This document shows, piece by piece, positions 5,272 through 19,321 of a stretch of DNA of 64,000 nucleotides. Origin of the DNA: Geminicoccaceae bacterium (lineage in GTDB: Bacteria > Pseudomonadota > Alphaproteobacteria > Geminicoccales > Geminicoccaceae); assembly GCA_025999455.1 (NCBI GenBank), contig AP024683.1, forward strand, positions 3,102,451 to 3,166,450. The letters run 5' to 3'. The notes beneath the pieces are model-generated. The model was not told the DNA's origin. It did not search any database and saw only the letters and a program-made list of their open reading frames with translations. Numbering within the stretch: the first letter of the stretch is position 1; each line of letters opens with the position of its first letter. The position numbers were made by a program, and so were the translations under genes.

Positions 5272-6075
5272 ATGGCCGACCCGTCCCCCGCCGCCGGCCC
5301 GCGCGGCGGGCCCCGAACCCCCGAAGGCAAAGCCAAGAGCGCCAGGAACGCGCTCCGCCACGGCCTGCGCGCCGCCCGCTTCTCGCTCCTCCCCCACGAG
5401 GACCCGGAAGAATTCCGTGCGCTCGTGGCGGAACTGCGCGCCCGCTACCGGCCGGCCGACGCCATCGAGCAGGAGCTCGTCGACGCGATCGCCGTCGCGA
5501 TGTGGCGCGAGGCGCGCGCCGACCGGCTCGAGGCCGAGCTCCTCGCCGACCTCCCGCCGGCCGACGAGACCCGCACCTGCGGCAGCGATCTCGGCAAGAG
5601 TGCCGCCCGCGCCGGGCTCGCGACGCTCGTCCGCTACCGCGCCGCCGCGCAGCTGGAGCATCGGCGGGCGTTGGCCCTGCTCGAGGCCCATCGCCGGCTC
5701 GCCGCGAGCCGCCCGGCCTCGCGCGACGAGGACGACGAAGCGCCGGCCGGGTCCGAACCGCCGCGGCCGTCCGTCGTGAGCCTACGGTTCGAGGTGCGCG
5801 AGAAGGAGAACCCGCTCGACACCCCGCTCCTGCGCCGGCTCGGCCGCGACCCCGACCTCGTGCTGCCGGTCCCCGGGGTCGAGCCGCGCTTCTGGCCCAA
5901 GGCGCAGGAGCGGGCCACGACCGGGCCCTTCCCGCCGGACGGGCCGCAGCCCTATCGGCGGGTGCCGGGGCTGCCCTGGCACATGTGGTGGGACCACCAA
6001 CATCTTTTGGCCGATCCGCCGGCCGGCGCCGAACCCGCGCCCCCCTCCCGCGACGAGCGCGCCCGCGCGGCCTAG
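5272..6075 (+). CDS. Conserved protein of unknown function with GPRTPEGKA...NALRHGL motif
   Basis: A 267-residue protein. The N terminus carries GGPRTPEGKAKSARNALRHG, a signature seen in widespread, often multi-copy proteins of no known function. The middle (residues ~60-150) is helical and charged, with EQELVDAIAVAMWREARADR and a run rich in arginine and alanine. The C terminus is proline-rich with a WHMWWDHQ aromatic cluster. There is no signal peptide or membrane segment. It has its own AT-rich leader and is followed by a hairpin, so it is probably a single-gene unit. Start at the ATG at 5272 puts the signature at residue 12. I do not assign a function. Confidence 0.7.
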   Translation: MADPSPAAGPRGGPRTPEGKAKSARNALRHGLRAARFSLLPHEDPEEFRALVAELRARYRPADAIEQELVDAIAVAMWREARADRLEAELLADLPPADETRTCGSDLGKSAARAGLATLVRYRAAAQLEHRRALALLEAHRRLAASRPASRDEDDEAPAGSEPPRPSVVSLRFEVREKENPLDTPLLRRLGRDPDLVLPVPGVEPRFWPKAQERATTGPFPPDGPQPYRRVPGLPWHMWWDHQHLLADPPAGAEPAPPSRDERARAA

Positions 6076-6193: not shown

Positions 6194-7399
6194 ATGGCCG
6201 AGGTCGGGGGTGAGCCGGGCGCGGGGACGGTCGCGACCGCGACCTATCTGCAGCGCTTCACCGTCGCCTACGAATATCCCGTCGTGTTCACCGAGGGCCT
6301 GTTCCGGCCCGACAATCCCGTGCTCGCCGACACGCTCCGCCGGCTCGAGCCCGATCGGCGGCATCGCTGCCTCGTCTTCGTGGACGAGGGACTCCTCGCC
6401 GTCCGCCCGGGCCTCGCCCGCGAGATCGAGGCCTATGCCCGCGCGCACGCGCGCACGATCGAACTCGTGGCCCCGCCGCTGACCGTGCCGGGCGGCGAGA
6501 AGATCAAGAACGACCTCTTCCACATCGAATGGATGATGGGGCTCGTCTACGACCACCGCCTCGACCGCCACTCCTTCATCCTGGCGGTGGGGGGCGGTGC
6601 CGTGCTCGACGCGGTCGGGCTCGTGGCGGCGACGAGCCACCGCGGCATCCGTCTCGTGCGGGTGCCGACCACCGTGCTGGCCCAGAACGATTCCGGGGTG
6701 GGGGTCAAGAACGCGGTCAATCTGCGCGGCTCGAAGAACTTCGTCGGCACCTTCGCGCCACCCTTCGCGGTCTTGAACGATCTCGACTTCGTCGACCTCT
6801 TGCCGCCTCGCGAGAAGATCGCCGGGATGGCGGAAGCGGTGAAGGTGGCCTTGATCCGCGACCGCGACTTCTTCCGCTGGCTCGAGCGCCACGCGCTCGC
6901 CCTCGCCGCCTTCGACCGGCCGGCCATGGCGTACATGATCCGCCGCTGCGCCGAGCTCCACATGCGGCAGATCGCGACCGGCGGCGACCCGTTCGAGACC
7001 GGCTCGGCCCGGCCGCTCGACTTCGGCCATTGGGCGGCGCACAAGCTCGAGAGCCTGACCCGCCACCATCTCCGCCACGGCGAGGCGGTGGCGATCGGCA
7101 TCGCCCTCGACACCCGCTATTCGGTCCTCGCGGGCCTGCTCGAGCCGGGTGCCGAGGAGCGGGTCTGCGCGCTCCTCGAACTCTTGGGTTTCCGGCTCTG
7201 GAGCCCGGCCCTCGAGGCGCGCACGGCCGAGGGCGGCTTCGCCGTCCTGCAGGGCCTGCAGGAGTTCCGCGAGCATCTGGGGGGCGAGCTCACCGTGACC
7301 TTGCTCCAGGAGATCGGCCGCGGCGTCGAGGTCCACGCGATCGACGAGGCGCTCGTCGTCGAGGCGATCCGCTGGCTCGCCGAGCGCGCCCGGCCTTGA
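6194..7399 (+). CDS. eboD: EboD-type sugar-phosphate-cyclase family protein (3-dehydroquinate synthase-like)
   Basis: A 401-residue member of the 3-dehydroquinate synthase/sugar phosphate cyclase superfamily. The NAD-binding segment ILAVGGGAVLDAVGLVAATSHRG lies in the middle, and the expected zinc ligands are in GMAEAVKVALIRD (Glu), DFGHWAAHKLE (His) and RHGEAVAIG (His). The opening YLQRFTVAYEYPVVFTEGLF is characteristic of EboD rather than AroB. Start ATG at 6194 has GGGAGG 7 bases upstream. It begins the run eboD-eboE-eboC. The reaction of EboD is not established; family membership suggests cyclisation of a sugar phosphate. Confidence 0.88.
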   Translation: MAEVGGEPGAGTVATATYLQRFTVAYEYPVVFTEGLFRPDNPVLADTLRRLEPDRRHRCLVFVDEGLLAVRPGLAREIEAYARAHARTIELVAPPLTVPGGEKIKNDLFHIEWMMGLVYDHRLDRHSFILAVGGGAVLDAVGLVAATSHRGIRLVRVPTTVLAQNDSGVGVKNAVNLRGSKNFVGTFAPPFAVLNDLDFVDLLPPREKIAGMAEAVKVALIRDRDFFRWLERHALALAAFDRPAMAYMIRRCAELHMRQIATGGDPFETGSARPLDFGHWAAHKLESLTRHHLRHGEAVAIGIALDTRYSVLAGLLEPGAEERVCALLELLGFRLWSPALEARTAEGGFAVLQGLQEFREHLGGELTVTLLQEIGRGVEVHAIDEALVVEAIRWLAERARP

Positions 7400-7409
7400 G
7401 GGAGGTGTC

Positions 7410-8621
7410 GTGCAGCTTTCCACCCCCGCCGGCCCCGTCCACCTGACCTACTGCACGAACATCCACCGGGGCGAGAGCTGGGCCGAGACCGAGGCGGCGC
7501 TGCGCACCCATCTGCCGGTCGTCAAGGCGAAGGTCTGCCCGCAGGCGCCCATGGGGGTGGGCCTCCGGCTTTCGGCCCGCGCCGCCGAGGAGCTCGCCGA
7601 GCCGGAAAAGCTCGAGGCGTTCCGCGCCTGGCTCGCGGCCGAAGGGCTCTACGTCTTCACGATCAACGGCTTCCCTTACGGCACCTTCCACGGCAGCCGG
7701 GTCAAGGAGCAGGTCTACCAGCCGGATTGGACGCGGCCCGAGCGGGTCGCCTACACGCGCCGGCTCGCCGAGCTCCTCGCCGCCCTCCTGCCCGACGAGC
7801 CCGGGCTCGAGGGCTCGATCAGCACCGTTCCGGGGACCTTCCGGCCGCTCGGGGCCGATCTCCGGGTGATCCCGGCGATCGTCGCGAACCTGCAGCGCGT
7901 GGCGGCCGACCTCGTCGCGATCGAACGGCGGACCGGCAAGCGGATCGCCCTCGCCCTCGAACCCGAACCCCACTGCCTGCTCGAGACGACCGAAGAGGCC
8001 GTCTCGTTCCTGGAGCGCCGGCTCTTCGCCGAGCGGGCGCTCGCGGTCTTCGCCCGCGAGGCCGATCTGCCCTTCGCCGAGGCCGAGCCGGCGCTCCGCC
8101 GCCATCTCGGCATCTGCCTCGACGCCTGCCACGCCGCGGTCGAGTTCGAGGACCTCGAAGCGAGCCTCGAGCGGCTGCGCGCGGCCGGGATCGCCGTGCC
8201 GAAGCTGCAGCTCTCGGCCGCCCTCGAGGTCCCGCGGGTCGGCCCCGACACGATGGCGCAGCTCACTCGCTTCGACGACGGCGTCTACCTGCACCAGGTC
8301 GTCGAGCGCGCGCCCGACGGCGTGCGCCGCCACTTCCTCGACCTCGACCGGGCCTTCGCCGAGCTCGCGAGTGCCCAGGGGCGGACCTGGCGGGTCCATT
8401 GCCACGTCCCGATCTTCGTCGACCGGATCGGTGACGGCCTCGCCTCGACCCGGCCGAGCCTGGAGCGGCTTTTGATGCTCCAGCGCGAGCGCCCGATCAG
8501 CCGGCACCTCGAGGTCGAGACCTACACCTTCGAGGTCCTGCCCGAGGAGCTCCGGGCGAGCGGGATGGACGAGGCGATCGCGCGCGAGCTCCTGTGGGCC
8601 CGGGAGCGGCTCGTCGGATGA
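7410..8621 (+). CDS. eboE: EboE-type TIM-barrel protein (xylose isomerase-like)
   Basis: A 403-residue protein of the xylose isomerase-like TIM-barrel group that belongs to the ebo gene set. Features are the opening LTYCTNIHRGESW, the metal-site-like LALEPEPHCLLE, CLDACHAAVEFED and RVHCHVPIFVD. The GTG start at 7410 has GGAGG at 7401-7405 and lies 10 bases after eboD. Its stop overlaps the ATG of eboC (ATGA, 8618-8621), so eboD-E-C form one transcription unit. Substrate unknown; related folds isomerise sugars or cleave phosphodiesters. Confidence 0.87.
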   Translation: MQLSTPAGPVHLTYCTNIHRGESWAETEAALRTHLPVVKAKVCPQAPMGVGLRLSARAAEELAEPEKLEAFRAWLAAEGLYVFTINGFPYGTFHGSRVKEQVYQPDWTRPERVAYTRRLAELLAALLPDEPGLEGSISTVPGTFRPLGADLRVIPAIVANLQRVAADLVAIERRTGKRIALALEPEPHCLLETTEEAVSFLERRLFAERALAVFAREADLPFAEAEPALRRHLGICLDACHAAVEFEDLEASLERLRAAGIAVPKLQLSAALEVPRVGPDTMAQLTRFDDGVYLHQVVERAPDGVRRHFLDLDRAFAELASAQGRTWRVHCHVPIFVDRIGDGLASTRPSLERLLMLQRERPISRHLEVETYTFEVLPEELRASGMDEAIARELLWARERLVG

Positions 8622-9502
8622 CCGCGACCGAGCCCCTGCCGGTCTGGCTGCGCCTCGGCCGGGTCTCCAACCTGCCGACGGTCTGGAGCAACGCCCTGGC
8701 CGGGGTGGCGGTGGCGGGCGGCGAGCCCTGGAGCCCGGTGACCTTCGTCGTGGGTGTCGCTTTGTCGCTCTTCTACGTGGGCGGGATGTATCTGAACGAC
8801 GCCTTCGACCACGCGATCGACGCCCGCGAGCGGCCGAGCCGGCCGATCCCCTCGGGGGAGGTCGCTCCCGAGACGGTCTTCGCCCTCGGTTTCGCCCTGC
8901 TCCTCGGGGGCCTCTCGGCTCTGGCGGCGGCCTTGGCGCTGCCGCCCACGGATTCGGGGCTCGGGGCGATGGTCGCAGGCGTGGGCCTCGCCGGGGCGAT
9001 CGTCCTCTACGATTGGCACCACAAGGCCAACCCGCTCTCCCCCGTCCTCATGGGTCTCTGCCGGGTCCTCGCCTACGTGACGGCCGGCCTCGCCGCGACC
9101 ACGAGCCCGGCATCCGGCTTGTGGATCCTCGCGATCGTGGGGCTCGGCTGGCTCGTGGGTCTCACCTGGGCCGCCAAGCAGGAGGCCTTCGACCGGCTGG
9201 AGCGGTTCTGGCCTCTCGCCTTCTTGGCAGCCCCCCTCCTCTACGGGCTCGCCCGGCTCGACGCCCGCCCGCTCGCCTGGCTCTTGCTCCTGGCGCTCGC
9301 GGCCTGGCTCGGCTTCGCCCTCTTCCTCTTGAACCGGCGGGACAAGGGCGACGTGCCGCGGGCGGTCGTGAGCTTGATCGCCGGGATCTCGCTCGTGGAC
9401 GCGCTCTTCCTCGCGGTCGCGGGCCAGCCTTCGGCGGCCTTCGCGGCGGTCGGCTGCTTCGGTCTCACCCTGCTCCTCCAGCGCTGGGTCGCTGGCACAT
9501 GA
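8618..9502 (+). CDS. eboC: EboC-type UbiA-family prenyltransferase
   Basis: An integral membrane UbiA-superfamily prenyltransferase of 294 residues with about eight hydrophobic segments. The first aspartate-rich motif NDAFDHAIDARERPSRPI (NDxxDxxxD) binds Mg-prenyl diphosphate. The second conserved region, YDWHHKANPLSP, differs from the usual form and is typical of the EboC branch. The start at ATG 8618 overlaps the eboE stop by 4 bases. In the ebo set this enzyme is thought to attach an isoprenoid to an unknown acceptor. An idi gene nearby would balance the prenyl precursors. Confidence 0.87.
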   Translation: MTATEPLPVWLRLGRVSNLPTVWSNALAGVAVAGGEPWSPVTFVVGVALSLFYVGGMYLNDAFDHAIDARERPSRPIPSGEVAPETVFALGFALLLGGLSALAAALALPPTDSGLGAMVAGVGLAGAIVLYDWHHKANPLSPVLMGLCRVLAYVTAGLAATTSPASGLWILAIVGLGWLVGLTWAAKQEAFDRLERFWPLAFLAAPLLYGLARLDARPLAWLLLLALAAWLGFALFLLNRRDKGDVPRAVVSLIAGISLVDALFLAVAGQPSAAFAAVGCFGLTLLLQRWVAGT

Positions 9503-9650
9503 TCGGAACCTTGGCAAAGGGCGGCGGAACGCCCCTGCCCCGCGACGGCCTCGATGGACAGTTCGTCGCAGCTTCGCTAATCCCATGGTCGCCTTCGCGC
9601 GAGGCGGGGGAGCCGGCGAGGCAGATCTTCAACAGGGAGGTTCCGAAAAC

Positions 9651-10952
9651 ATGCGCGCAACCCTGACGGGTCTCACCATGGCCGCGGCCGTCGCTCTGGC
9701 GGTCGGGACGGCCGGGCCGGCGCAAGCCGAGGTCAAGGTCAAGCTCGAGCCCTACGTGACGGGTGTGAACGCCCCGCTCGCCATGGTCTCGATCCCCGAC
9801 GGCAGCGGCCGCAAGGCGCTCATCGAGCAGACCGGCAAGGTCCGGATCATCGACGCCCGCGGGCGCCTCTTGCCCGAGCCCTTCTTGAACATCGAATCGA
9901 AGCTCGTCCACCTCGAGCCCTATTTCGACGAGCAGGGGCTCCTCGGCATCGCGTTCCACCCGAACTATCGCGAGAACGGCCGCTTCTACGTGGCCTACAG
10001 CGCGCCGCTCTCCTCGGGTGCGCCGCTCGACCGCAAGCTCTGGTGGGCGCACACCAACGTCGTGGCCGAGTACACCGTCTCCAAGGCCGACCCGAACAAG
10101 GCCGACGCCTCCAACGAGAAGATCATCTCGGCGATCGACTGGCCGCAGTTCAACCACAACGGCCACTGGATCGGCTTCGGGCCGGACGGCAAGCTCTACG
10201 TCTCGACCGGTGACGGCGGCTACGCCAACGACTGGGGCATCGGTCACAACGTCCAGATCGGCAACGGCCAGGACCTCTCGACGCCGCTCGGCAAGATGCT
10301 CCGGCTCGACGTCGACTCGCCGCAGACCAACTACGTCCCGGCCGACAATCCCTTCGTCGGCCGCAGCGACGCCGATCCGCGGATCTGGGCGCTCGGCTTG
10401 CGCAATCCTTGGCGCTGCTCGTTCGACATGGGTGGTGATCGGGCGCTCTATTGCGGCGACGTCCAGCAGAACAGCTTCGAAGAGGTCTCGATCATCACCA
10501 AGGGCGCCAATCTCGGCTGGCGACGGATGGAAGCCGACCGTTGCTTCGACTTCCTCGCGCCGAACAAGCACCCCGAGAACTGCGACAAGACCGGGCTCAC
10601 CCCGCCGATCCTCGTCTACAACAACTGCACGGCGATCCCGCAGAACTGCATGGGCATCTCGGTGACCGGCGGCTACGTCTACCGCGGGTCGCACAAGGCC
10701 TGGGACGGCAAGTACATCTTCGGTGACTGGTCGAAGTCGTTCAGCGAGATGGACGGCCAGCTGTTCTTCGCAACCAAGGGCGCCGACGGCAAGTGGACGA
10801 TGGAGAAGGCGACCGTCGTCAACATGCAAAAGCTGCCCTACATCCTCGCTTTCGCGCAGGACGATCAGGGTGAGGTCTACGCCTTGACCTCGATCACCAC
10901 GGGACCGGTCGGCAGCCTCGACACGGTCTACAAGATCGTCCCGGCCAACTGA
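9651..10952 (+). CDS. Secreted PQQ-type glucose/sorbosone dehydrogenase-like protein
   Basis: A 433-residue secreted beta-propeller of the glucose/sorbosone dehydrogenase family. Residues 1-26 form a signal peptide ending AGPAQA. Family motifs follow: DEQGLLGIAFHPNY, FNHNGHWIGFGPDGKLYVSTGDGG, GKMLRLDVDS, IWALGLRNPWRCSFD and ITGGYVYRG-like VTGGYVYRG. These contain the residues that hold PQQ in characterised members. Start ATG at 9651 is set by AGGGAGG 10 bases upstream and the signal peptide. It is followed by hairpins and then a cytochrome c that could accept electrons. Substrate is unknown; it sits inside the ebo gene set. Confidence 0.85.
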   Translation: MRATLTGLTMAAAVALAVGTAGPAQAEVKVKLEPYVTGVNAPLAMVSIPDGSGRKALIEQTGKVRIIDARGRLLPEPFLNIESKLVHLEPYFDEQGLLGIAFHPNYRENGRFYVAYSAPLSSGAPLDRKLWWAHTNVVAEYTVSKADPNKADASNEKIISAIDWPQFNHNGHWIGFGPDGKLYVSTGDGGYANDWGIGHNVQIGNGQDLSTPLGKMLRLDVDSPQTNYVPADNPFVGRSDADPRIWALGLRNPWRCSFDMGGDRALYCGDVQQNSFEEVSIITKGANLGWRRMEADRCFDFLAPNKHPENCDKTGLTPPILVYNNCTAIPQNCMGISVTGGYVYRGSHKAWDGKYIFGDWSKSFSEMDGQLFFATKGADGKWTMEKATVVNMQKLPYILAFAQDDQGEVYALTSITTGPVGSLDTVYKIVPAN

Positions 10953-11037: not shown

Positions 11038-11439
11038 GTGGGTTTGAAACCGCGTCGTGCATCCTCGCTCCTGCTCCTCTGCCTGTTGGTCGGGCTCGCG
11101 GGTCCGGGGTCGGGACCGAGCCGGGCGCAGCAGGCCGAGCCCTCCCCGGACAAGGTCTTCAACGACCCGCCGCCGCCCATGCCCAAGGAGCTCCTGCAGA
11201 AACCCGAGCTCATCGCGCGCGGCGACGCGATCTGGAAGGAGCAGTGCACCCACTGCCACGGCTCCAAGGCCTATCCCGGCAAGGCGCCGAAGCTCGTGCC
11301 GCGGCGCTACACGCCGGAATTCGTCTGGGACCGGGTGCACAACGGCTTCCGCGGCATGCCGCCCTGGAAGGAGGTTTATTCGGAAGAGGACATCGTCGCG
11401 GTCGTGGCCTACGTCCTGAGCGACGAGTTCTGGCCCTGA
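11038..11439 (+). CDS. Secreted class I cytochrome c
   Basis: A 133-residue mono-heme cytochrome c. A hydrophobic signal peptide (residues ~10-30, ending SRAQQA) directs export. The heme motif is CTHCH at residues 70-74, and M107 in FRGMPPW is the likely sixth ligand. The GTG start at 11038 has GGAG just upstream; TTG at 11044 is an alternative. The gene follows the sugar dehydrogenase, so a role as its electron acceptor is plausible but inferred. It ends 5 bases from the convergent subtilase. Confidence 0.88.
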   Translation: MGLKPRRASSLLLLCLLVGLAGPGSGPSRAQQAEPSPDKVFNDPPPPMPKELLQKPELIARGDAIWKEQCTHCHGSKAYPGKAPKLVPRRYTPEFVWDRVHNGFRGMPPWKEVYSEEDIVAVVAYVLSDEFWP

Positions 11440-11444
11440 GGCCC

Positions 11445-12689
11445 TCAATCCGCGGCCGGATCGGCGATCCAGCCGTGGCGCGCGAGGACCAGGCCCTGCG
11501 GGTGCGGCGGCATCGCCTCGGCACGGGCGAGGATCGCAGCCCGGAGCCCGGCCGCATCGAGGCTCGGATCCCGTGCCAGCAGCCGGGCGGCGAGGGCGGC
11601 GATCCGGGGGGCGGCGAAGCTCGTCCCGAAGCCCGGCCCGCGGCGGCCCTCGGCATCGGTGATCCACACCCCCTCGCCCGGGGCGAAGAGGTCGACCGTG
11701 CGCGCCCCCCAGTTCGAATCGGGCGCGATCCGGCCGTCGCCCGTGCAGGACCCGATCGTGAGCTGGTTCGGCAGACCGAAGGCCGCCGGATAGACCGGCC
11801 GGGCGTCGATGTCGCGGGCATCGTTGCCGGCCGAGACGACGAACAAGAGCTCGGGGTGGGCGGACGCCACCTCGCGGAACTCGGCCCAGTCCTCTTCGCT
11901 GCCGTTGCCGAGCGGCACGAGCACGATCTTGGCACCGTGGCGCTCGGCGTGGGCGACGATCCGGGCGAAGCCGCGGGCCCGCTCCAGGCCGAAGCGGTAG
12001 GGGAGGATGCGGGCCGCCGGGGCCTCGCGGGCGAGGATCGAGGCGACCGCGGTGCCGTGCCGGCGGGGGAAGAAGGCGTTGCGGCTCTGGTCGAGATCGA
12101 AGGGCCGTTCGTCCTCGTCGACCAGGTCCAGGCCCGCGAGCCGCCCGTCGGGCCCGTAGGCCAAGCGGGCCGCGATCTCCGGCAAGAGATAGTTGACCCC
12201 GGAATCGACCAGCGCCACGGCCACACCCGACGACGGCGCGCCTTCGGGCGGTGGCGGGTTGATCGCGATCCGCGCGCCGATCGGCCGGAGCTCGGCGTCG
12301 AGATCCTCGTAGAAGCGGTCGAGCCCCTCCTCGACGATCCGCCGGCCGCCCAGGATCCGGCAGGTCGCGTCGGTATGGAGGATGGCGATCCCACGCCCGT
12401 CGGCTCGCAGATGCTCGGCGACGACGCCCCGCACGCGCCCGGCATGGACCGCCCGACGGACCTGCAAGCGATCGCCGTCGGCCCGCTCGAAGACCAAAAG
12501 ATCGTTGCGCTGATGGTCGTTGGCGGCACTCAGGAGGCGCAGCCCCGGCACGGCCGGCAGCGACAGGGCCGGTGCGGCGCAGATCGCCCGGGCAGCACCG
12601 GCCAAGAAGTCCGGCTCGAAAGCGCCGGCCGACGGACCGCCGAGGGTGGCGGCGAGCGCGAGGGCCGGAACGAGCGGTCGAAGGGTCAC
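11445..12689 (-). CDS. Secreted subtilisin-like (S8) serine peptidase
   Basis: A 414-residue peptidase with a signal peptide (residues 1-23, LALAATLGGPSAGA). The S8 triad is visible as D162 (VALVDSG), H211 (RRHGTAVAS) and S357 (FGTSFAAPRIAA), with the oxyanion N289 (SAGND). The ~135 residues before the catalytic domain may act as a propeptide. The start is GTG at 12689, and a GCTAGGCT -10-like sequence lies 28 bases upstream. It separates the ebo genes on the plus strand, is divergent from eboA and convergent with the cytochrome. Substrate unknown. Confidence 0.87.
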   Translation of the reverse strand: MTLRPLVPALALAATLGGPSAGAFEPDFLAGAARAICAAPALSLPAVPGLRLLSAANDHQRNDLLVFERADGDRLQVRRAVHAGRVRGVVAEHLRADGRGIAILHTDATCRILGGRRIVEEGLDRFYEDLDAELRPIGARIAINPPPPEGAPSSGVAVALVDSGVNYLLPEIAARLAYGPDGRLAGLDLVDEDERPFDLDQSRNAFFPRRHGTAVASILAREAPAARILPYRFGLERARGFARIVAHAERHGAKIVLVPLGNGSEEDWAEFREVASAHPELLFVVSAGNDARDIDARPVYPAAFGLPNQLTIGSCTGDGRIAPDSNWGARTVDLFAPGEGVWITDAEGRRGPGFGTSFAAPRIAALAARLLARDPSLDAAGLRAAILARAEAMPPHPQGLVLARHGWIADPAAD

Positions 12690-12787: not shown

Positions 12788-12808
12788 GGCCGCACGGGGA
12801 GGAAACGG

Positions 12809-13681
12809 ATGAGCCCGAGCGAGCGCGCCTTGGATCTCTTGACCCGCTGGGTGGTGGCGAGGGTCCCGGCGGAGGCGGCCGAATGGTTCCGTGCCCAGCT
12901 CGCGGCCGTGGCCGGGGCGCGCGACGAGAAGCCCCTCTATCTGGCGCTCGGCTGGGCGCCGCGCCGGCTCGGCAAGGCGGACCTGCGGCTGTCGCCACGG
13001 GAGCTCGCCGAGGCGGCCGAGGTCCGGCCGGGCTTCGATCCGGTCGATTGGAGCGTCGACCAAGCGGCCCGGGTGGCCCTCGTCCTCGCGAGCTACGACG
13101 GCGACCCGCAGCGCTTCAAAGCCCGGCTCGAGACGCTTTTCCGCACGGCCGACATCGGCGAGACGATCGCCTTCTACCGAGGGCTTCCCCTCTACCCCGC
13201 GCCCGAGCTCCTGGTCGCCCGCGCCCGGGAAGGTGCGCGTTCGGGCATGCGCCCGGTGTTCGAGGCGGTGGCGCACCGCAACCCCTACCCCAAGGAGCGC
13301 TTCGACGAGAACGCTTGGAACCATCTCGTCTTGAAGGCCCTCTTCATCGGCACGTCACTCGATCCGATCCAGGGCCTCGACGAGCGGGCGAATCCGCGGC
13401 TCGTGCGGATGCTCTGCGACTACGCCCACGAGCGCTGGGCCGCCGGCCGGCCGGTGAGCCCCGAGCTCTGGCGCTGTGTGGGGCCGCACGCCGACGAGGC
13501 CGCCCTCGCCGACCTCGCCCGGGTCCTCGAGACCGGGGGCGGCGAGGAGCGCAAGGCGGCGGCCTTGGCCCTTTCGAGCTGCCCGCGGCCGGAAGCGAAG
13601 GCCCTTCTGGCCCGCCATCCCGAACTCGAAGGACCGATCGCGCGCGGTGAGATCCGCTGGGCCGCCTTCGCCCAGGCCTGA
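12809..13681 (+). CDS. eboA: EboA domain protein
   Basis: A 290-residue protein that matches the EboA family of unknown function: helical, with LGWAPRRLGKADLRLS near the start, FRTADIGETIAFYRGLPLYP in the middle, and KALFIGTSLDPIQGLDERANPRL. No catalytic motif is recognisable. ATG at 12809 follows GGGGAGGA. An open frame extends upstream to 12572 but is noncoding in character. It lies 20 bases before eboB, so the two form an operon separate from eboD-E-C. Confidence 0.85.
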   Translation: MSPSERALDLLTRWVVARVPAEAAEWFRAQLAAVAGARDEKPLYLALGWAPRRLGKADLRLSPRELAEAAEVRPGFDPVDWSVDQAARVALVLASYDGDPQRFKARLETLFRTADIGETIAFYRGLPLYPAPELLVARAREGARSGMRPVFEAVAHRNPYPKERFDENAWNHLVLKALFIGTSLDPIQGLDERANPRLVRMLCDYAHERWAAGRPVSPELWRCVGPHADEAALADLARVLETGGGEERKAAALALSSCPRPEAKALLARHPELEGPIARGEIRWAAFAQA

Positions 13682-13701: not shown

Positions 13702-14622
13702 ATGTACCTCGATTCGCACACCCACATGATCTCGCGGACCACCGACGATTACGAGCGGATGGCCGCGGCCGGGGTGGTGGCCTGCATCGAGCCGGCGTTC
13801 TGGCTCGGCCAGCCGCGCACGAGTGTCGGGACCTACATCGACTATCTCTCGCTCATCTGCGGCTTCGAGCGGTTCCGCGCGGGCCAGTTCGGGCTCCGCC
13901 ACTACTGCACGGTCGGCCTCAATCCCAAGGAAGCCAACAACGAGGAGCTCGCCGAGGCGGTGATGGAGATCCTGCCGCGCTACGCGCTCAAGGAAGGCGT
14001 CGTCGCGATCGGCGAGATCGGCTACGACGAGCAGACCGAGCTCGAGGATCGCTATTTCCGCCGCCAGCTCGAGCTCGCCAAAGAATTGCAGCTCCCGGTC
14101 ATGATCCACACCCCCCACCGGGACAAGAAGAAGGGGACGCTCCGCTCGATGGACGTCGTCCGCGAGCACGGGCTCGACCCGTCCTGGGTGGTGATCGACC
14201 ACAACAACGAAGAGACCGTGCAGGAGGTTCTGGATCGCGGCTTCTGGGCGGCGTTCTCGATCTATCCGTTCACCAAGATGGGCAACGAGCGGATGGTCGA
14301 GATCGTCCGGCGCTACGGAGCCGAACGGATCTTCTGCGATTCGGCCTGCGATTGGGGGATCTCGGATCCGCTCGCCGTACCCAAGACGGCCGAGCTCATG
14401 CGCCGGGCCGGGATCCCCGAGGCCGACATCCGGAAAGTCACTTACGAGAACCCGCTCACCGCGTACGGCAAGTCCGGCCAGATCAAGGAAGAGGACTGGT
14501 TGAACCCGCCGCCGGTCGACCAGCGGCTCCTCTACATGGGCAACTCGATCCTGCGCGGTGGCCAGGAGCCTCGCATCGAGACGCGACGGCCCGGGCTCGA
14601 CGAGGATCTGCGGATCGTCTGA
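13702..14622 (+). CDS. eboB: EboB, TatD-family metal-dependent hydrolase
   Basis: A 306-residue TIM-barrel hydrolase of the TatD family. The metal site is visible as DSHTHM (residues 4-9), the glutamate of AIGEIGYDE, IHTPHRDKKKG, VIDHNNEE and the aspartate in CDSACDWG. The start ATG at 13702 has GGAG in GGGAGACGAGCC upstream. It follows eboA closely. EboB enzymes are assigned to the ebo set by conservation; the substrate is unknown. It is convergent with idi, with 27 bases between stops. Confidence 0.88.
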   Translation: MYLDSHTHMISRTTDDYERMAAAGVVACIEPAFWLGQPRTSVGTYIDYLSLICGFERFRAGQFGLRHYCTVGLNPKEANNEELAEAVMEILPRYALKEGVVAIGEIGYDEQTELEDRYFRRQLELAKELQLPVMIHTPHRDKKKGTLRSMDVVREHGLDPSWVVIDHNNEETVQEVLDRGFWAAFSIYPFTKMGNERMVEIVRRYGAERIFCDSACDWGISDPLAVPKTAELMRRAGIPEADIRKVTYENPLTAYGKSGQIKEEDWLNPPPVDQRLLYMGNSILRGGQEPRIETRRPGLDEDLRIV

Positions 14623-14649: not shown

Positions 14650-15195
14650 TCAAGCGGCGCGGCGCAGCTCGAGCGCTGGTCGGTGCTCGCGCAGATAGAG
14701 GCGGAACCAGTAACTGTAGCGCTCGGGTCGGGCCCGCAGGTCGGCCTCGAGCTCTTCGGGGGTGACCCAGGCGAAGCCCTCGGCCTCCTCGGGATCGGGC
14801 CGGACCGGGCCCTCGTAGACCGCGCCGAAGACGTGGACGAGCTCGTGCTCGACGAGCCCGTTGTCGAGCTCGGCCCGGTAGATCGTCGTCAAGAGCGGCT
14901 CGAGCTCGGCGTCGATGCCCATCTCCTCGCGCAGCCGGCGCCGCGCGGCATCGAGGACCGGTTCGCCGGGCCGCGGGTGCGAGCAGCAGGTGTTCGTCCA
15001 GAGCCCGCCCGAATGGTACTTGGCCCGGTGCCGCTTCTGCAGCAGGAAGCGGCCGGCCGGGTCGCGGACCACGACCGAGAAGGCGCGGTGCAGCCGGCCC
15101 TCCCGATGGGCGGCGAGCTTGGGGGCGGTGCCGATCGGCCGATCCTCGCTGTCGACCAGCACGACCCGTTCTTCGTCCACCACGCCGCTCGTCAT
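14650..15195 (-). CDS. idi: Isopentenyl-diphosphate delta-isomerase type 1
   Basis: A 181-residue Nudix-fold IDI that interconverts isopentenyl and dimethylallyl diphosphate. Motifs: KYHSGGLWTNTCCSHPRPGE with the catalytic cysteine, RRRLREEMGI (Nudix-like helix), and VEHELVHVF with the catalytic glutamate region. The C-terminal SYWFRLYL contains the conserved tryptophan. It is the last gene of the operon GH31-lipocalin-eboF-idi, 72 bases after eboF, and its presence next to an ebo prenyltransferase suggests local supply of prenyl donors. Confidence 0.93.
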   Translation of the reverse strand: MTSGVVDEERVVLVDSEDRPIGTAPKLAAHREGRLHRAFSVVVRDPAGRFLLQKRHRAKYHSGGLWTNTCCSHPRPGEPVLDAARRRLREEMGIDAELEPLLTTIYRAELDNGLVEHELVHVFGAVYEGPVRPDPEEAEGFAWVTPEELEADLRARPERYSYWFRLYLREHRPALELRRAA

Positions 15196-15267
15196 GGCTC
15201 GTCCTCCCTTTCCGACAAGCTCGCACCGGTTCGCCCGTTCGACAAGCCCCGCCGACGCTACCGGCTG

Positions 15268-16653
15268 TCAAGGCTCGAAGACATGGGCGAGCACGAGGTC
15301 CTTGAACGCGGTCGCGGCGACCGGGCCGTCGGGCAAGAGCCGTGGCTCGGAGCTCGCGACGAGCGGTCCGTCCTCCTCCCGCTCGGTCAAAAGACCGTGC
15401 GAGCCTTTGACGAGCTCGACCCCGCGGATCGGGATCACGTCCAGGAGCGTGCGGAAGCCTAGCCTGCGCAAGGCGAGCTTGGCCGCGATCTTCGCCTTCA
15501 CGAAGGGCTGGGCCGGGTCGAGGAAGAGCTCCAGCGGATCGTAGCCCGGCTTGCGGTGGATGTCGACCGTGCGGGCGTAGTCCGGCGCGCGTGAATCGTC
15601 GAGCCACCAATAATAGGTGAACCAGCGGTCCGGTTCGGCCAACGCGACGAGCTCGCCCGAGCGGGGATGATCCAGCCCTTCTTTTTTCTTCCCTTCCTCG
15701 TCGAGCACCCGCGCGATGCCCGGTGTCTTTTCGAGGAGGGCTTTGACCCGGGCGGGATCGGTGCCGTGTTGGAGATAGACGTGGGCGACCTGGTGGTCGG
15801 CGAGCGCGAAGGCCCTGGATGCCCCGGCATCGAGCTGCTCGCGCCCGAGCTCCATGCGGACACGGACGAGCCCCGCCTCGCGCAGCACGCGGTTGACGTG
15901 GACGGCCCCGCGCACCGGCAGGATGCCGTATTCGGACACGAGCACGACCCGGTGGCCGCGGCCACGGGCGAACTCGATCAGCTCGCCCGCGACCGCGTCG
16001 ATCTCGCGGAGATCGGCGGCGATCCGCGGATCCTCGGGGTGGGGGCCCCATTTCTGCAGGCCGTAGTCGAGATGCGGCAGGTAGCAGAGTGTCAAGGTCG
16101 GGCGACGGGTCGCGAGCACGTGGGCGGTGGCGCGGGCGATCCAGCGCGAGGAGCCGATGTCGGTCGCCGGACCCCAGAACCGGAAGAGCGGGAAGCGACC
16201 GAGTAGCCGGTCGAGCTCGTCGTGGAGCTCGGGCGGTTCGGTGTAATGGTCCGGGATCTTGCGGCCGTCGGCCGGGTACATCGGGCGCGGCGTCGCCGAG
16301 ACGTCGACGCTCGAATACATGTTGTACCACCAGAACATGTTGGCGGCGGTGAAGGCCGGATCGCGCTTCTTGCCGGCTTCCCAGATCTTCTCGCCGGCCA
16401 CGAGCCGGTTCGATTGCCGCCAGAGCCAAACTTCGGCGAGGTCGCGGAAATACCAGCCGTTGGCGACGGCGCCGTGCCCGCGCGGCAGGAGGCCGGTCAG
16501 GAGCGTCGACTGGACGGTGCAGGTGACGGCGGGGAGCACGGTGCGCAACGGCCGCAGCCCGCCGTCCCGCACGAAGGCCGAGAGCCTCGGCGTGTTCGGG
16601 CCCAAAAGGCGCGGGGTGAGGCCCACGATCAACAAGACGAGGGTCGGGGTCAC
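15268..16653 (-). CDS. eboF: EboF-type phosphodiesterase/nucleotide pyrophosphatase (alkaline phosphatase fold)
   Basis: A 461-residue member of the type I phosphodiesterase/nucleotide pyrophosphatase family. The nucleophile region is AVTCTVQSTLLTGLLPRGHG with the threonine or serine acceptor. Metal ligands are expected in LCYLPHLDYGLQKWGPH, VVLVSEYGILPV and VKGSHG. The GTG start at 16653 overlaps the lipocalin stop (GTGA, 16650-16653) and removes 12 non-conserved residues. The tail carries a conserved YYWWLDD. It completes the ebo set but lies on the opposite strand. Substrate unknown. Confidence 0.86.
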   Translation of the reverse strand: MTPTLVLLIVGLTPRLLGPNTPRLSAFVRDGGLRPLRTVLPAVTCTVQSTLLTGLLPRGHGAVANGWYFRDLAEVWLWRQSNRLVAGEKIWEAGKKRDPAFTAANMFWWYNMYSSVDVSATPRPMYPADGRKIPDHYTEPPELHDELDRLLGRFPLFRFWGPATDIGSSRWIARATAHVLATRRPTLTLCYLPHLDYGLQKWGPHPEDPRIAADLREIDAVAGELIEFARGRGHRVVLVSEYGILPVRGAVHVNRVLREAGLVRVRMELGREQLDAGASRAFALADHQVAHVYLQHGTDPARVKALLEKTPGIARVLDEEGKKKEGLDHPRSGELVALAEPDRWFTYYWWLDDSRAPDYARTVDIHRKPGYDPLELFLDPAQPFVKAKIAAKLALRRLGFRTLLDVIPIRGVELVKGSHGLLTEREEDGPLVASSEPRLLPDGPVAATAFKDLVLAHVFEP

Positions 16654-17261
16654 GCGCCGCTCCCCCGCCCGGCGAGCGCGAGGTCGCACAAGCGCGCCCC
16701 GCGGCGCGGATCGGCCGAGGCGGTCAGCACGACCCGGCAGGGATCGTAGCCCGCGCGCGCGAGCGTGGCGCGCAATCGCGCGAGCACCTCGTCCTCGAGG
16801 CGCGGCTCGCGGGCGAGGATCCAGGCGTAGTCGCGGCTCGGATGGGCGACGAGCGACCAGCGATAGTCGGGGTCGAGGGCGATCACGACGTAGGCTCCGG
16901 CGGTCGCCCAGAGCCAGAAGCCCAGGGGCTCGAGGAAGGTGACCTCGAGGGCGCCACGATCGGCAGGGCCGGTGAGCCGTGCCCGACCGAAGGCGACCTT
17001 CTCCTCGCCCTCGGCGGTCCGGCAGGCGTTCCGCACCGCGATCCAGGCCGGGTCTTCGGGCGCCGGCGCGTAGGTGGCGGTCGTGTCGCGCGCACAGTCC
17101 CGCTGGAACCAGGCCGGGATCGTCGCGATCTCGTGCCAGGTGCCGAGATAGCGGTCGACCTCGAAGCCCGTGACGGGCTCGAGCGGCGGCCCCACGGCCG
17201 GCCGGCTACAGGCGGCCACGAAGAGAGCCGAGGCGAGCGCGAGGCTGCGGACGGGCGTCAT
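16650..17261 (-). CDS. blc: Bacterial lipocalin lipoprotein (Blc-like)
   Basis: A 203-residue outer-membrane-type lipocalin. The lipobox FVAAC at residue ~20 gives a lipidated cysteine. The lipocalin motif DRYLGTWHEIATIPAWFQRDC follows, and the typical late strand ending RDYAWILAREP is present. Such proteins bind fatty acids or other hydrophobic ligands. It overlaps the GH31 stop (ATGA, 17258-17261) and the eboF start by 4 bases, so all three are translationally coupled. A hydrophobic-ligand carrier coupled to a prenyl-related pathway is notable. Confidence 0.9.
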   Translation of the reverse strand: MTPVRSLALASALFVAACSRPAVGPPLEPVTGFEVDRYLGTWHEIATIPAWFQRDCARDTTATYAPAPEDPAWIAVRNACRTAEGEEKVAFGRARLTGPADRGALEVTFLEPLGFWLWATAGAYVVIALDPDYRWSLVAHPSRDYAWILAREPRLEDEVLARLRATLARAGYDPCRVVLTASADPRRGARLCDLALAGRGSGA

Positions 17262-19321
17262 CGGAACCTCCGGATCTCGGCGATCGGCACGGGTGCCGTC
17301 TCGCCCCAAGCGGCGACCCGCTCGGTCGGGGGTGCGAGCGGGATCGCGGCTCCGGCGCGGGCGAAGAGCGGGAACCGCTCGAGCGGCCAGGTGCCCTCGA
17401 GCCGCCGCGGTCCCGTGAAGCGCTCGCCCGTGAACCAATCGACCCATGCACCTTCGGGCAGCCAGACGAGCGCTCGACCGCCGGGGCGGACGATCGGGGC
17501 CACGAGGAGGTCGGGCCCGAAGAGATATTGGAGCTCGAAGGCCCAGCTCTCGGGCTCGCGCGGGAAGGCGAGCGGCATGGGCCGGCAGAGCGGCAGCCCG
17601 GTCGCCCCGGCCTCGGCGAGCGCGCGCTCGATGTAGGGGACGAGCCGCACGCGCAAGAGGAGCGCCTCGCGCACGTGCTCGAGCACCCTCTCGCCGAACG
17701 CCCAGGGCTCGCGCGGGCCGATGCCGTGGAAGCGCATGTGCGAGGCGAAGACGGCCGCCTGGGTCCAGCGGACGAAGAGCTCGGGATCGGGCGGGCCGCC
17801 GTAGAAGCCGCCGATGTCGGTCGCGTAGAAAGGATTGCCCGAGAGCGACCAGGAGAGCAGGCCGCGGATCGAGGCGGCGAGCCCGCCCCAATCGGCCTGC
17901 GGATCGCCGCCCCACGAGCCGGGCACGGTCTGGCTGCCGATCCAGCCCGAGCGGGCCAAGACGAAGCCCGTGCCGAAGCGGCGCGCCGAGGCCTCGTGGA
18001 CGCAGCGGTTGTAGAGGAGCGGGTAAACATTGTGCAGCTCGGGCCCGCGCGTGCCGTCGTGGGCGATACAGTTCGGATCGTCGGGCACCTGCTCGCCGAA
18101 GTCGGTCTTGAAGACGTCGACCCCGAGATCGAAGAGCGCCGCGTGCCGGTCACGCCACCAGGCCCGGGCCCCGGGATGGGTGAAATCCACGATCCCGGAG
18201 GGCGGCAGCGGGGTGAGCACGGCGCCGAAGGGTGCCGGATCCCATTCGTGCCGCCAGGGCTCGCCGGTCCGCGCATCCTTCAAGAGGAAGCCCGCGCGGG
18301 CGAGCTCGCGCCAGTGCGGGCCGTGCAGCGAGACGAGCGGATATTCCCAGCAGCAGAGCGCGAAGCCGAGCTCGTGGACGCGGCGGACCGTACCGGCCGG
18401 GTCGGGGTAACGGGCGGGGTCGAACGCGAAGTGGAAGCGCGTCGCGGTGTCCTGCCAGGCGCGGCCGTCGAGGGTGATCACGTCCATCGGCAGCCGCAGC
18501 TCGCGGCAACGGCGCGCGGCCGCGAGGAGCTCGCCCTCGTCACGGTAATAGGCGCGCGAGAGCCAGGGCCCGAGCGTCCAGCGCGGCACCCGGGCGGGCC
18601 GGCCGGTGAGGCGGGTGAAGGCGTCGAGCACCCCGGCCGCGCCGTCGGCGGCGAAGAGGAAGAGGTCGAGGGCCGGCTCTTCGACGCGGAGCGCGTAAGC
18701 GCGGTGCGAGAACGGGGCGAAGCCCACGCCGTGGAGGACCCGGGCGGTGGTGTGGGTGAGCAGCCCCCAGCCGCGCGGCGAGAGGGCGAAGGGAACGTTC
18801 TTGTAGGAAGCCTCCGCGTTGACCCCGAGCGCGTCCTCGTTCCAGGAGACGAGCAGCTGGCCGCGATGGTCGAGGCGGGTCCATTTCTCGCCGTGGCCGT
18901 AGACGGGTTCACCCTCTTCGAGGTCGAAGGCGGCGAACAGGCCCTCTTCGCCGCGGGCGAAGGGCGGCAGGCGGAAGCGGCGGCGGAAATGGGCGTCGGT
19001 CGGCGGACCCAGGAGCGGCCGGTCGCCGAGCCGGAGATGGATCGCGAGCGGCTCGGTCTCGACGAAAAGGCGCAAGCGGCCGCTCTCGAGGAGCCAGCCG
19101 CCTTCGGTTCGCGCGAGTGTCGCGGGCGGCCGCTCGACGGGCGGCTGGACGAGGCCGTGGTCGGGACCACGACGTTCGCCGATCCGCAGCCGAACCGTGT
19201 CGGCGGCCAGGATCTCGAGACGGAACGGGCCGGCCGAGGTCCGGCCGATCAGGACCCCTTCCCTTCCGTCCGCTCCCGGAGCGAGGGCGAGCTCGTCCAG
19301 GGATCCCGGATCGACGCGCAT
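17258..19321 (-). CDS. Glycoside hydrolase family 31 alpha-glycosidase
   Basis: A 687-residue GH31 enzyme. The nucleophile is D407 in DVFKTDFGEQVP and the acid/base candidate is D473 in GSWGGDPQADW. Other family motifs are PRWTLGPWLSRAYYRDE, LPMDVITLDGRAWQD and SLSGNPFYATDIGGF. The layout (N-terminal beta-sandwich, barrel from ~245, C-terminal sheets) resembles YicI-type alpha-xylosidases, but GH31 also includes alpha-glucosidases and others. There is no signal peptide, so it acts in the cytoplasm. First gene of the operon leading to lipocalin, eboF and idi. Confidence 0.9.
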   Translation of the reverse strand: MRVDPGSLDELALAPGADGREGVLIGRTSAGPFRLEILAADTVRLRIGERRGPDHGLVQPPVERPPATLARTEGGWLLESGRLRLFVETEPLAIHLRLGDRPLLGPPTDAHFRRRFRLPPFARGEEGLFAAFDLEEGEPVYGHGEKWTRLDHRGQLLVSWNEDALGVNAEASYKNVPFALSPRGWGLLTHTTARVLHGVGFAPFSHRAYALRVEEPALDLFLFAADGAAGVLDAFTRLTGRPARVPRWTLGPWLSRAYYRDEGELLAAARRCRELRLPMDVITLDGRAWQDTATRFHFAFDPARYPDPAGTVRRVHELGFALCCWEYPLVSLHGPHWRELARAGFLLKDARTGEPWRHEWDPAPFGAVLTPLPPSGIVDFTHPGARAWWRDRHAALFDLGVDVFKTDFGEQVPDDPNCIAHDGTRGPELHNVYPLLYNRCVHEASARRFGTGFVLARSGWIGSQTVPGSWGGDPQADWGGLAASIRGLLSWSLSGNPFYATDIGGFYGGPPDPELFVRWTQAAVFASHMRFHGIGPREPWAFGERVLEHVREALLLRVRLVPYIERALAEAGATGLPLCRPMPLAFPREPESWAFELQYLFGPDLLVAPIVRPGGRALVWLPEGAWVDWFTGERFTGPRRLEGTWPLERFPLFARAGAAIPLAPPTERVAAWGETAPVPIAEIRRFR

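Follow-up and report, generated by a model that had tools for sequence, protein, structure and literature searches.

Clusters of ebo genes occur in many phyla. According to published reports, eboC and eboD were the basis for proposing a sugar (cyclitol)-derived prenyl compound (Yurchenko et al. 2016, PMC5133447), homologues of EboC farnesylate quinolines (PMC9235831), and the ebo genes of Pseudomonas are linked to the repelling of nematodes (PMC6282210). In Nostoc, deletion of eboF abolishes scytonemin, ebo mutants do not bring the monomer of this sunscreen into the periplasm, and it was proposed that ebo helps to move a metabolite there (Klicki et al. 2018, PMC6282210). Here, we analyzed a stretch of 64,000 nucleotides from a Geminicoccaceae bacterium (contig AP024683.1, positions 3,102,451 to 3,166,450 of the forward strand), hereafter called the window, in which profile matches place all six genes eboA to eboF close together, as in the published cluster and in an order near its DECABF type (PMC5133447). 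The best explanation of this locus, which we hold to be probable though far from secure, is an ebo island accompanied by a passenger pair, consisting of a glycoside hydrolase family 31 (GH31) gene and a lipocalin gene, with the prenylated ebo product being oxidized by a periplasmic glucose/sorbosone-dehydrogenase-type protein (GSDH) and a cytochrome c. The genes concerned are listed by their positions in the window.

6194 to 7399, plus strand: eboD, sugar phosphate cyclase type (NF004852, over cut-off)
7410 to 8621, plus strand: eboE, TIM barrel (NF035939, over cut-off)
8594 to 9502, plus strand: eboC, UbiA-type prenyltransferase (PF01040, over cut-off; below the cut-off of the ebo-specific model NF035940, 107 versus 250; the true start may lie slightly downstream)
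9585 to 10952, plus strand: GSDH, secreted beta-propeller of the glucose/sorbosone dehydrogenase type (PF07995, 120 bits, cut-off 25; likely start ATG near 9651; signal peptide by eye)
11038 to 11439, plus strand: secreted single-haem cytochrome c (CTHCH motif; export signal by eye)
11445 to 12689, minus strand: subtilase (S8), inserted between cytochrome c and eboA
12809 to 13681, plus strand: eboA (EboA domain NF035938, over cut-off; span taken for searches, 12800 to 13681)
13702 to 14622, plus strand: eboB, TatD-type hydrolase (PF01026 match), converging on idi
14650 to 15195, minus strand: idi, type-1 (NUDIX) isopentenyl-diphosphate isomerase (NF002995, 173 bits, cut-off 127; TIGR02150, 119, cut-off 105.8)
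15268 to 16653, minus strand: eboF, alkaline-phosphatase fold of the nucleotide pyrophosphatase/phosphodiesterase (NPP) type (GTG start; 461 amino acids; PF01663, 199.8 bits)
16650 to 16653, minus strand: GTGA overlap of lipocalin stop and eboF start (exact sequence read)
16650 to 17261, minus strand: Blc-type bacterial lipocalin, a lipoprotein (203 amino acids; PF08212, 133 bits; lipobox FVAAC by eye)
17258 to 17261, minus strand: ATGA overlap of GH31 stop and lipocalin start (exact sequence read)
17258 to 19321, minus strand: GH31 glycosidase, YicI-like (687 amino acids; PF01055, 266 bits)

The plus strand carries eboD, eboE, eboC, GSDH, cytochrome c, eboA, and eboB in this order, and the minus strand carries lon, GH31, lipocalin, eboF, and idi. 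The ebo genes do not form a single co-directional operon, as eboF and idi are read in the direction opposite to that of eboD-E-C and eboA-B. Since a single gene is reversed in some published variants too (PMC5133447), the reversal of eboF does not bar the locus from being counted as an ebo cluster. In our reading, the ebo island is complete, with eboF-idi as its arm on the minus strand. The initial annotation had described GH31, lipocalin, eboF, and idi as an operon with 4-base overlaps. All four genes lie on the minus strand where it had placed them, the overlaps ATGA (17261 to 17258) and GTGA (16653 to 16650) are exact, and GH31, lipocalin, and eboF are indeed closely packed, but eboF and idi do not overlap, with 72 nt between them.

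The distribution of these genes was followed in six genomes of the genus (G000 to G005), all of which keep the ebo genes and idi adjoining eboF; in 40 genomes of relatives, counted as ebo-positive where EboE was found (12) and as ebo-negative elsewhere (28); in 385 genomes of the class, of which 10 are ebo-positive by the presence of EboF and 375 are ebo-negative; and in a scan of GTDB species contigs that gave 580 confirmed loci, of which the best 80 were taken. Locus counts refer to 72 distinct non-genus loci or genomes with at least three ebo genes, 41 proteobacterial and 31 others, proteobacterial membership having been assigned by hand with the help of record titles and the class search. 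For this count, the duplicates L085, L094, and L098 (the same as L057, L076, and L053) were dropped, the contig pairs of G011, G013, and G017 were merged, and 18 loci with fewer than three ebo genes were excluded together with L055, L058, L062, L063, and L064, which are GH31/lipocalin context loci. Companion counts per locus are lower bounds, since flank lengths differ and some contigs end early.

The strongest companions of ebo are GSDH and cytochrome c, which lie just outside the interval covered by the initial annotation. GSDH is found at 20 of the 41 proteobacterial non-genus loci and cytochrome c at 16 of them. When neighboring open reading frames were clustered over 83 loci, genus and duplicates included, GSDH came first (28 loci) and the next real genes were cytochrome c (21 loci) and idi (14 loci), the remaining top clusters being antisense or out-of-frame shadows of these three. 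Among the relatives, GSDH with at least 57% identity is present in 11/12 ebo-positive genomes, the exception being G016, an 86% complete draft, and in 0/28 ebo-negative genomes; counted by genus, the figures are 6/7 and 0/25. The class sample agrees, with GSDH in 9/10 ebo-positive genomes (at least 50% identity; exception G305) and in 0/375 ebo-negative ones (E 1e-80), where three of the nine matches contain one in-frame TGA, maybe because of end effects or damaged genes. Isopentenyl-diphosphate isomerase, whose link to ebo had been part of the initial annotation, recurs beside ebo outside the genus as well, namely, at 8/72 loci, with six of the eight over an NCBIfam cut-off and the neighbors at L089 and L093 below the NCBIfam idi cut-offs; two Hyphomicrobium loci carry an eboF-idi tandem, and idi occurs in 9/12 ebo-positive versus 3/28 ebo-negative relatives.

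In G017, a distance of about 68 kb separates the retained GSDH from eboE (C5:91352 versus C5:23739), and idi is present but away from ebo in G011, G016, and G017, so the association of both genes with ebo outlasts linkage. This bears on the alternative that idi, GSDH, and cytochrome c are bystanders too, belonging to one ancestral block moved by horizontal transfer. The linked cases of the three genes all lie in Proteobacteria (0/31 elsewhere), related loci share history, and a scan of the best 80 of 580 loci is biased toward loci resembling the EboF of the window, all of which a transferred block would explain. However, co-occurrence that survives the separation of the genes, a gene order that varies between loci, and the absence of this GSDH from the 375 ebo-negative genomes of the class speak against it, and we deem such a block unlikely, while granting it some weight. 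According to our analysis, idi and, more strikingly, GSDH with cytochrome c are better clues to ebo function than GH31 and lipocalin. To judge by their sequences, GSDH and cytochrome c would make a natural pair of dehydrogenase and electron acceptor, both with export signals recognizable by eye.

Several observations weigh against giving this pair a general or a catalytic role. Within the flanks covered, GSDH is unseen in 21 and cytochrome c in 25 of the 41 proteobacterial loci, and both are at 0/31 of the non-proteobacterial ones. The pair is accordingly not a universal part of ebo, although truncation affects many loci and makes these counts lower bounds. The closest solved relatives of GSDH are hedgehog-interacting proteins (HHIP), ahead of soluble glucose dehydrogenase, and GSDH falls far under the TIGR03606 cut-off. 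To our knowledge, hedgehog-interacting proteins are not known enzymes, and with these as its nearest solved relatives, catalysis by GSDH is only putative. PqqE is over its cut-off in the genome of the window and in 9/12 ebo-positive relatives, but is missing in the other 3/12 and present in 8/28 ebo-negative ones. Finally, the genomes are phylogenetically non-independent, and Fisher values ignore their shared ancestry. In the literature searched, the scope of which did not include the supplementary gene tables of PMC5133447, we found no report of a link of GSDH or cytochrome c with ebo.

Just upstream of eboF-idi in Hyphomicrobium (L102:7985-9972 and L105:7680-9206), a more distant GSDH stands together with another type of cytochrome c, perhaps as a second, parallel form of this pairing. 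The window also encodes, at positions 174 to 1469 of the plus strand, a protein of 431 amino acids that matches no Pfam family. G007 has a 76% identical copy within its ebo cluster, where it is flanked by eboA and cytochrome c (L051:3226-4515), and this protein may be a further companion of ebo. Small TMEM220-type membrane proteins are encoded near ebo in eight loci and VTT-domain membrane proteins in seven (L093:15571-15945, L097:3869-4510, and relatives). Among the ebo proteins tested within the genus, EboE (7410 to 8621) evolves fastest, with dN/dS values, the ratios of nonsynonymous to synonymous substitution rates, of 0.25 to 0.44 and with 69% identity in G002 versus 83 to 84% in G004 and G005, which suggests allele replacement or changing specificity.

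EboF was modeled with AlphaFold from 81 sequences, with a predicted local distance difference test score (pLDDT) of 96.2; this model replaces one from 12 sequences (pLDDT 68) and its Foldseek result. It matches ENPP5 with Z 32.8 and a root mean square deviation of 2.9 over 332 aligned residues and Xanthomonas (Xac) NPP with Z 32.5, the matches in the NPP family spanning Z 30.9 to 32.8. We take the canonical two-metal ligands of NPP to be D, T, D, and H for one metal and D, H, and H for the other. In profile alignment to Xac NPP, four of these seven, D, H, D, and H, are replaced in EboF, where V10 takes the place of the first ligand Asp, Q200 that of the metal His which follows D196 by four residues, and E241-Y242 that of DH in the motif SDHG. 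All four residues are invariant in 99 EboF rows (V10 in 98/98 ungapped), likewise T44, N65, D196, and H419, the equivalence of H419 depending on a weak GSHG alignment. The 99 rows comprise 19 from genome searches and 80 scan loci, three genomes being present twice, and a second conservation set had 81 rows. Since the site is uniformly changed and yet strictly conserved, we argue for altered chemistry rather than decay.

On these grounds, the label of EboF as a phosphodiesterase, which the initial annotation had adopted, appears doubtful and unsafe, and pathways should not be built on it. The alternative is that EboF is an ordinary two-metal phosphodiesterase or pyrophosphatase, that its residues are misaligned here, and that the annotation in the literature stands. 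The PF01663 score of 199.8 bits, the match to the NPP fold, and the retention of T44, D196, and H419 agree with this. Against it, the profile alignments put V10, Q200, E241, and Y242 at the ligand motifs of Xac NPP, these residues do not vary in the 99 rows, and the canonical motifs (FDGL/FDSL, D..YH, and SDHG) are retained in two PF01663 relatives outside ebo, taken from the family and the class. We therefore give an ordinary EboF little credence.

Taken together with the published work, these data lead us to the following proposal. Idi would balance isopentenyl diphosphate and dimethylallyl diphosphate for the UbiA-type EboC, which would attach a prenyl group to a polar head built with the help of EboD, EboE, and EboB. 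At the inner membrane or in the cytoplasm, EboF may act on or bind an intermediate that bears a phosphate. The ebo product would be a prenylated, possibly cyclitol-based compound, needed for the movement of metabolites to the periplasm. Once there, the product or its cargo would be oxidized by the ebo-linked GSDH, possibly with pyrroloquinoline quinone (PQQ), and the electrons would pass to the ebo-linked cytochrome c. What the data show is the gene content, the packing, the co-occurrence, the fold of EboF, and its altered ligands; we infer both the substrates and the order of these steps, and we presume that closely packed genes are co-transcribed; a promoter scan was uninformative, with one promoter-like site, inside eboF, and terminators at chance level. 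In Proteobacteria, ebo could then be half of a two-compartment system that links isoprenoid supply, through idi, to periplasmic electron transfer, through a dedicated GSDH and cytochrome c, and EboF, rather than a phosphodiesterase, could be an enzyme of the alkaline-phosphatase fold that was repurposed through a new, strictly conserved active site. This broader view is tentative, and we put it somewhat short of an even chance. The co-occurrence of GSDH with ebo offers a direct handle for asking whether the ebo product is oxidized in the periplasm.

GH31 and lipocalin, which the initial annotation had read as parts of the ebo pathway, present a different picture. Within the genus, GH31 lies beside ebo in 4/6 genomes and lipocalin in 5/6; four genomes have both, G003 has lipocalin only, and G001 has neither, with no lipocalin remnant in its 0.7-kb lon-eboF gap (tblastn, 1e-6). 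Outside the genus, the search for conserved linkage that the initial annotation had suggested returned 0/72 loci for GH31 and 0/72 for lipocalin, and hidden Markov models built for the purpose gave no hit at non-genus ebo loci. Lack of co-occurrence with ebo elsewhere was the refuting outcome that the initial annotation had itself named, and the two genes were rejected as general ebo partners. Even within the genus, 3/6 genomes, all with ebo, have no full-length GH31: G001 and G003 keep ebo without it, and in G005 (L050 3941-5875) the frame is open with about 55 residues gone between the nucleophile and acid/base motifs, which may be a real lesion or an assembly error of a draft genome. Because the branch deciding the rooting of the genus tree is weakly supported (0.372), we describe GH31 only as absent or damaged in these genomes.

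Searches beyond the loci gave a GH31 domain in 5/19 ebo-positive genomes, one of these unlinked. In the relatives, GH31 is over cut-off in 5/12 ebo-positive versus 2/28 ebo-negative genomes and lipocalins occur in 6/12 versus 5/28, the excess being mostly the genus itself in both cases. The sole unlinked GH31 homologue found in the family, 66% identical, adjoins DctP, DctM, and DctQ of a tripartite ATP-independent periplasmic (TRAP) transporter locus in G011, and this neighborhood suggests the breakdown of an imported glycoside. Moreover, the subtilase (11445 to 12689) and a hypothetical gene (5272 to 6075) share the presence of GH31 in the same four of six genomes (G000, G002, G004, and G005), so the pattern marks a clade rather than ebo.

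The GH31 protein keeps its catalytic motifs, with the nucleophile Asp in KTDFGE (residues 405 to 410) and the acid/base Asp in WGGD (residues 470 to 473), both shared with the Escherichia coli alpha-xylosidase YicI. Its nearest structures are of the YicI type (5f7c, 328 bits; 1we5, 310 bits), but it stays under the PRK10658 alpha-xylosidase equivalog cut-off (396 versus 606 bits). No signal peptide was seen in it by eye, and lipocalin is a lipoprotein; the two would for this reason be on different sides of the membrane and would not be expected to share a substrate there. The most likely role of GH31 is that of an ordinary alpha-glycosidase which acts on scavenged sugars in the cytoplasm.

Some features do argue for a closer tie. 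The 4-bp overlap of GH31 and lipocalin is kept in 4/4 genus genomes with both genes (ATGA, TTGA, TTGA, and ATGA) and that of lipocalin and eboF in 3/5, with short gaps in G003 and G005. Four-base overlaps are frequent in bacterial operons, and no rate was taken from the window-wide count, in which gene calls with the longest start lead to undercounting; still, as these overlaps are kept across genomes, the packing of GH31, lipocalin, and eboF is conserved and not accidental. Both genes are also under purifying selection (dN/dS by the NG86 method, 0.18 to 0.31 for GH31 and 0.17 to 0.29 for lipocalin, among genus genomes) and are accordingly maintained genes. With such coupling and selection, both genes could serve ebo in the genus. 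GH31 and lipocalin might then be true accessory parts there, GH31 trimming or transferring a sugar and lipocalin, which adjoins eboF in 5/6 genus genomes, carrying the prenyl compound at the outer membrane. Against this stand the 72 other ebo loci with neither gene, the genomes that lack GH31 or carry it internally deleted and keep all ebo genes, the homologue beside the TRAP transporter, the clade-wide distribution shared with the subtilase and the hypothetical gene, and the separation of an apparently unexported GH31 from an exported lipocalin. We consider an accessory role improbable. The two genes look like a genus-restricted passenger pair, with lon on one side and, on the other, eboF, to which the pair is coupled in translation. 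A sugar-derived prenyl product, as the initial annotation suggested, had been proposed from eboC and eboD (PMC5133447), but what GH31 and lipocalin were thought to add to it finds no support, and setting them aside removes a false lead toward a glycosylated product.

Compared with described systems, EboF resembles the PF01663 family (Xac NPP, ENPP4/5, and phosphonoacetate hydrolase) in its fold and in the position of its Thr nucleophile and departs from it in the invariant replacement of four of the seven canonical metal ligands. With the scytonemin-associated ebo genes of Nostoc punctiforme, the locus has homologues of EboA, EboB, EboC, EboE, and EboF in common; an L-sorbosone dehydrogenase is named in the portion considered of that paper only as a periplasmic marker protein (PMC6282210). 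As for the published ebo cluster, the part of the report considered here makes no mention of idi, GSDH, cytochrome c, subtilase, or GH31-lipocalin as companions (PMC5133447). All six of its genes are present in the window, where, unlike in that cluster, eboF is inverted together with idi, GH31-lipocalin precedes eboF, and GSDH, cytochrome c, and the subtilase stand between eboC and eboA.

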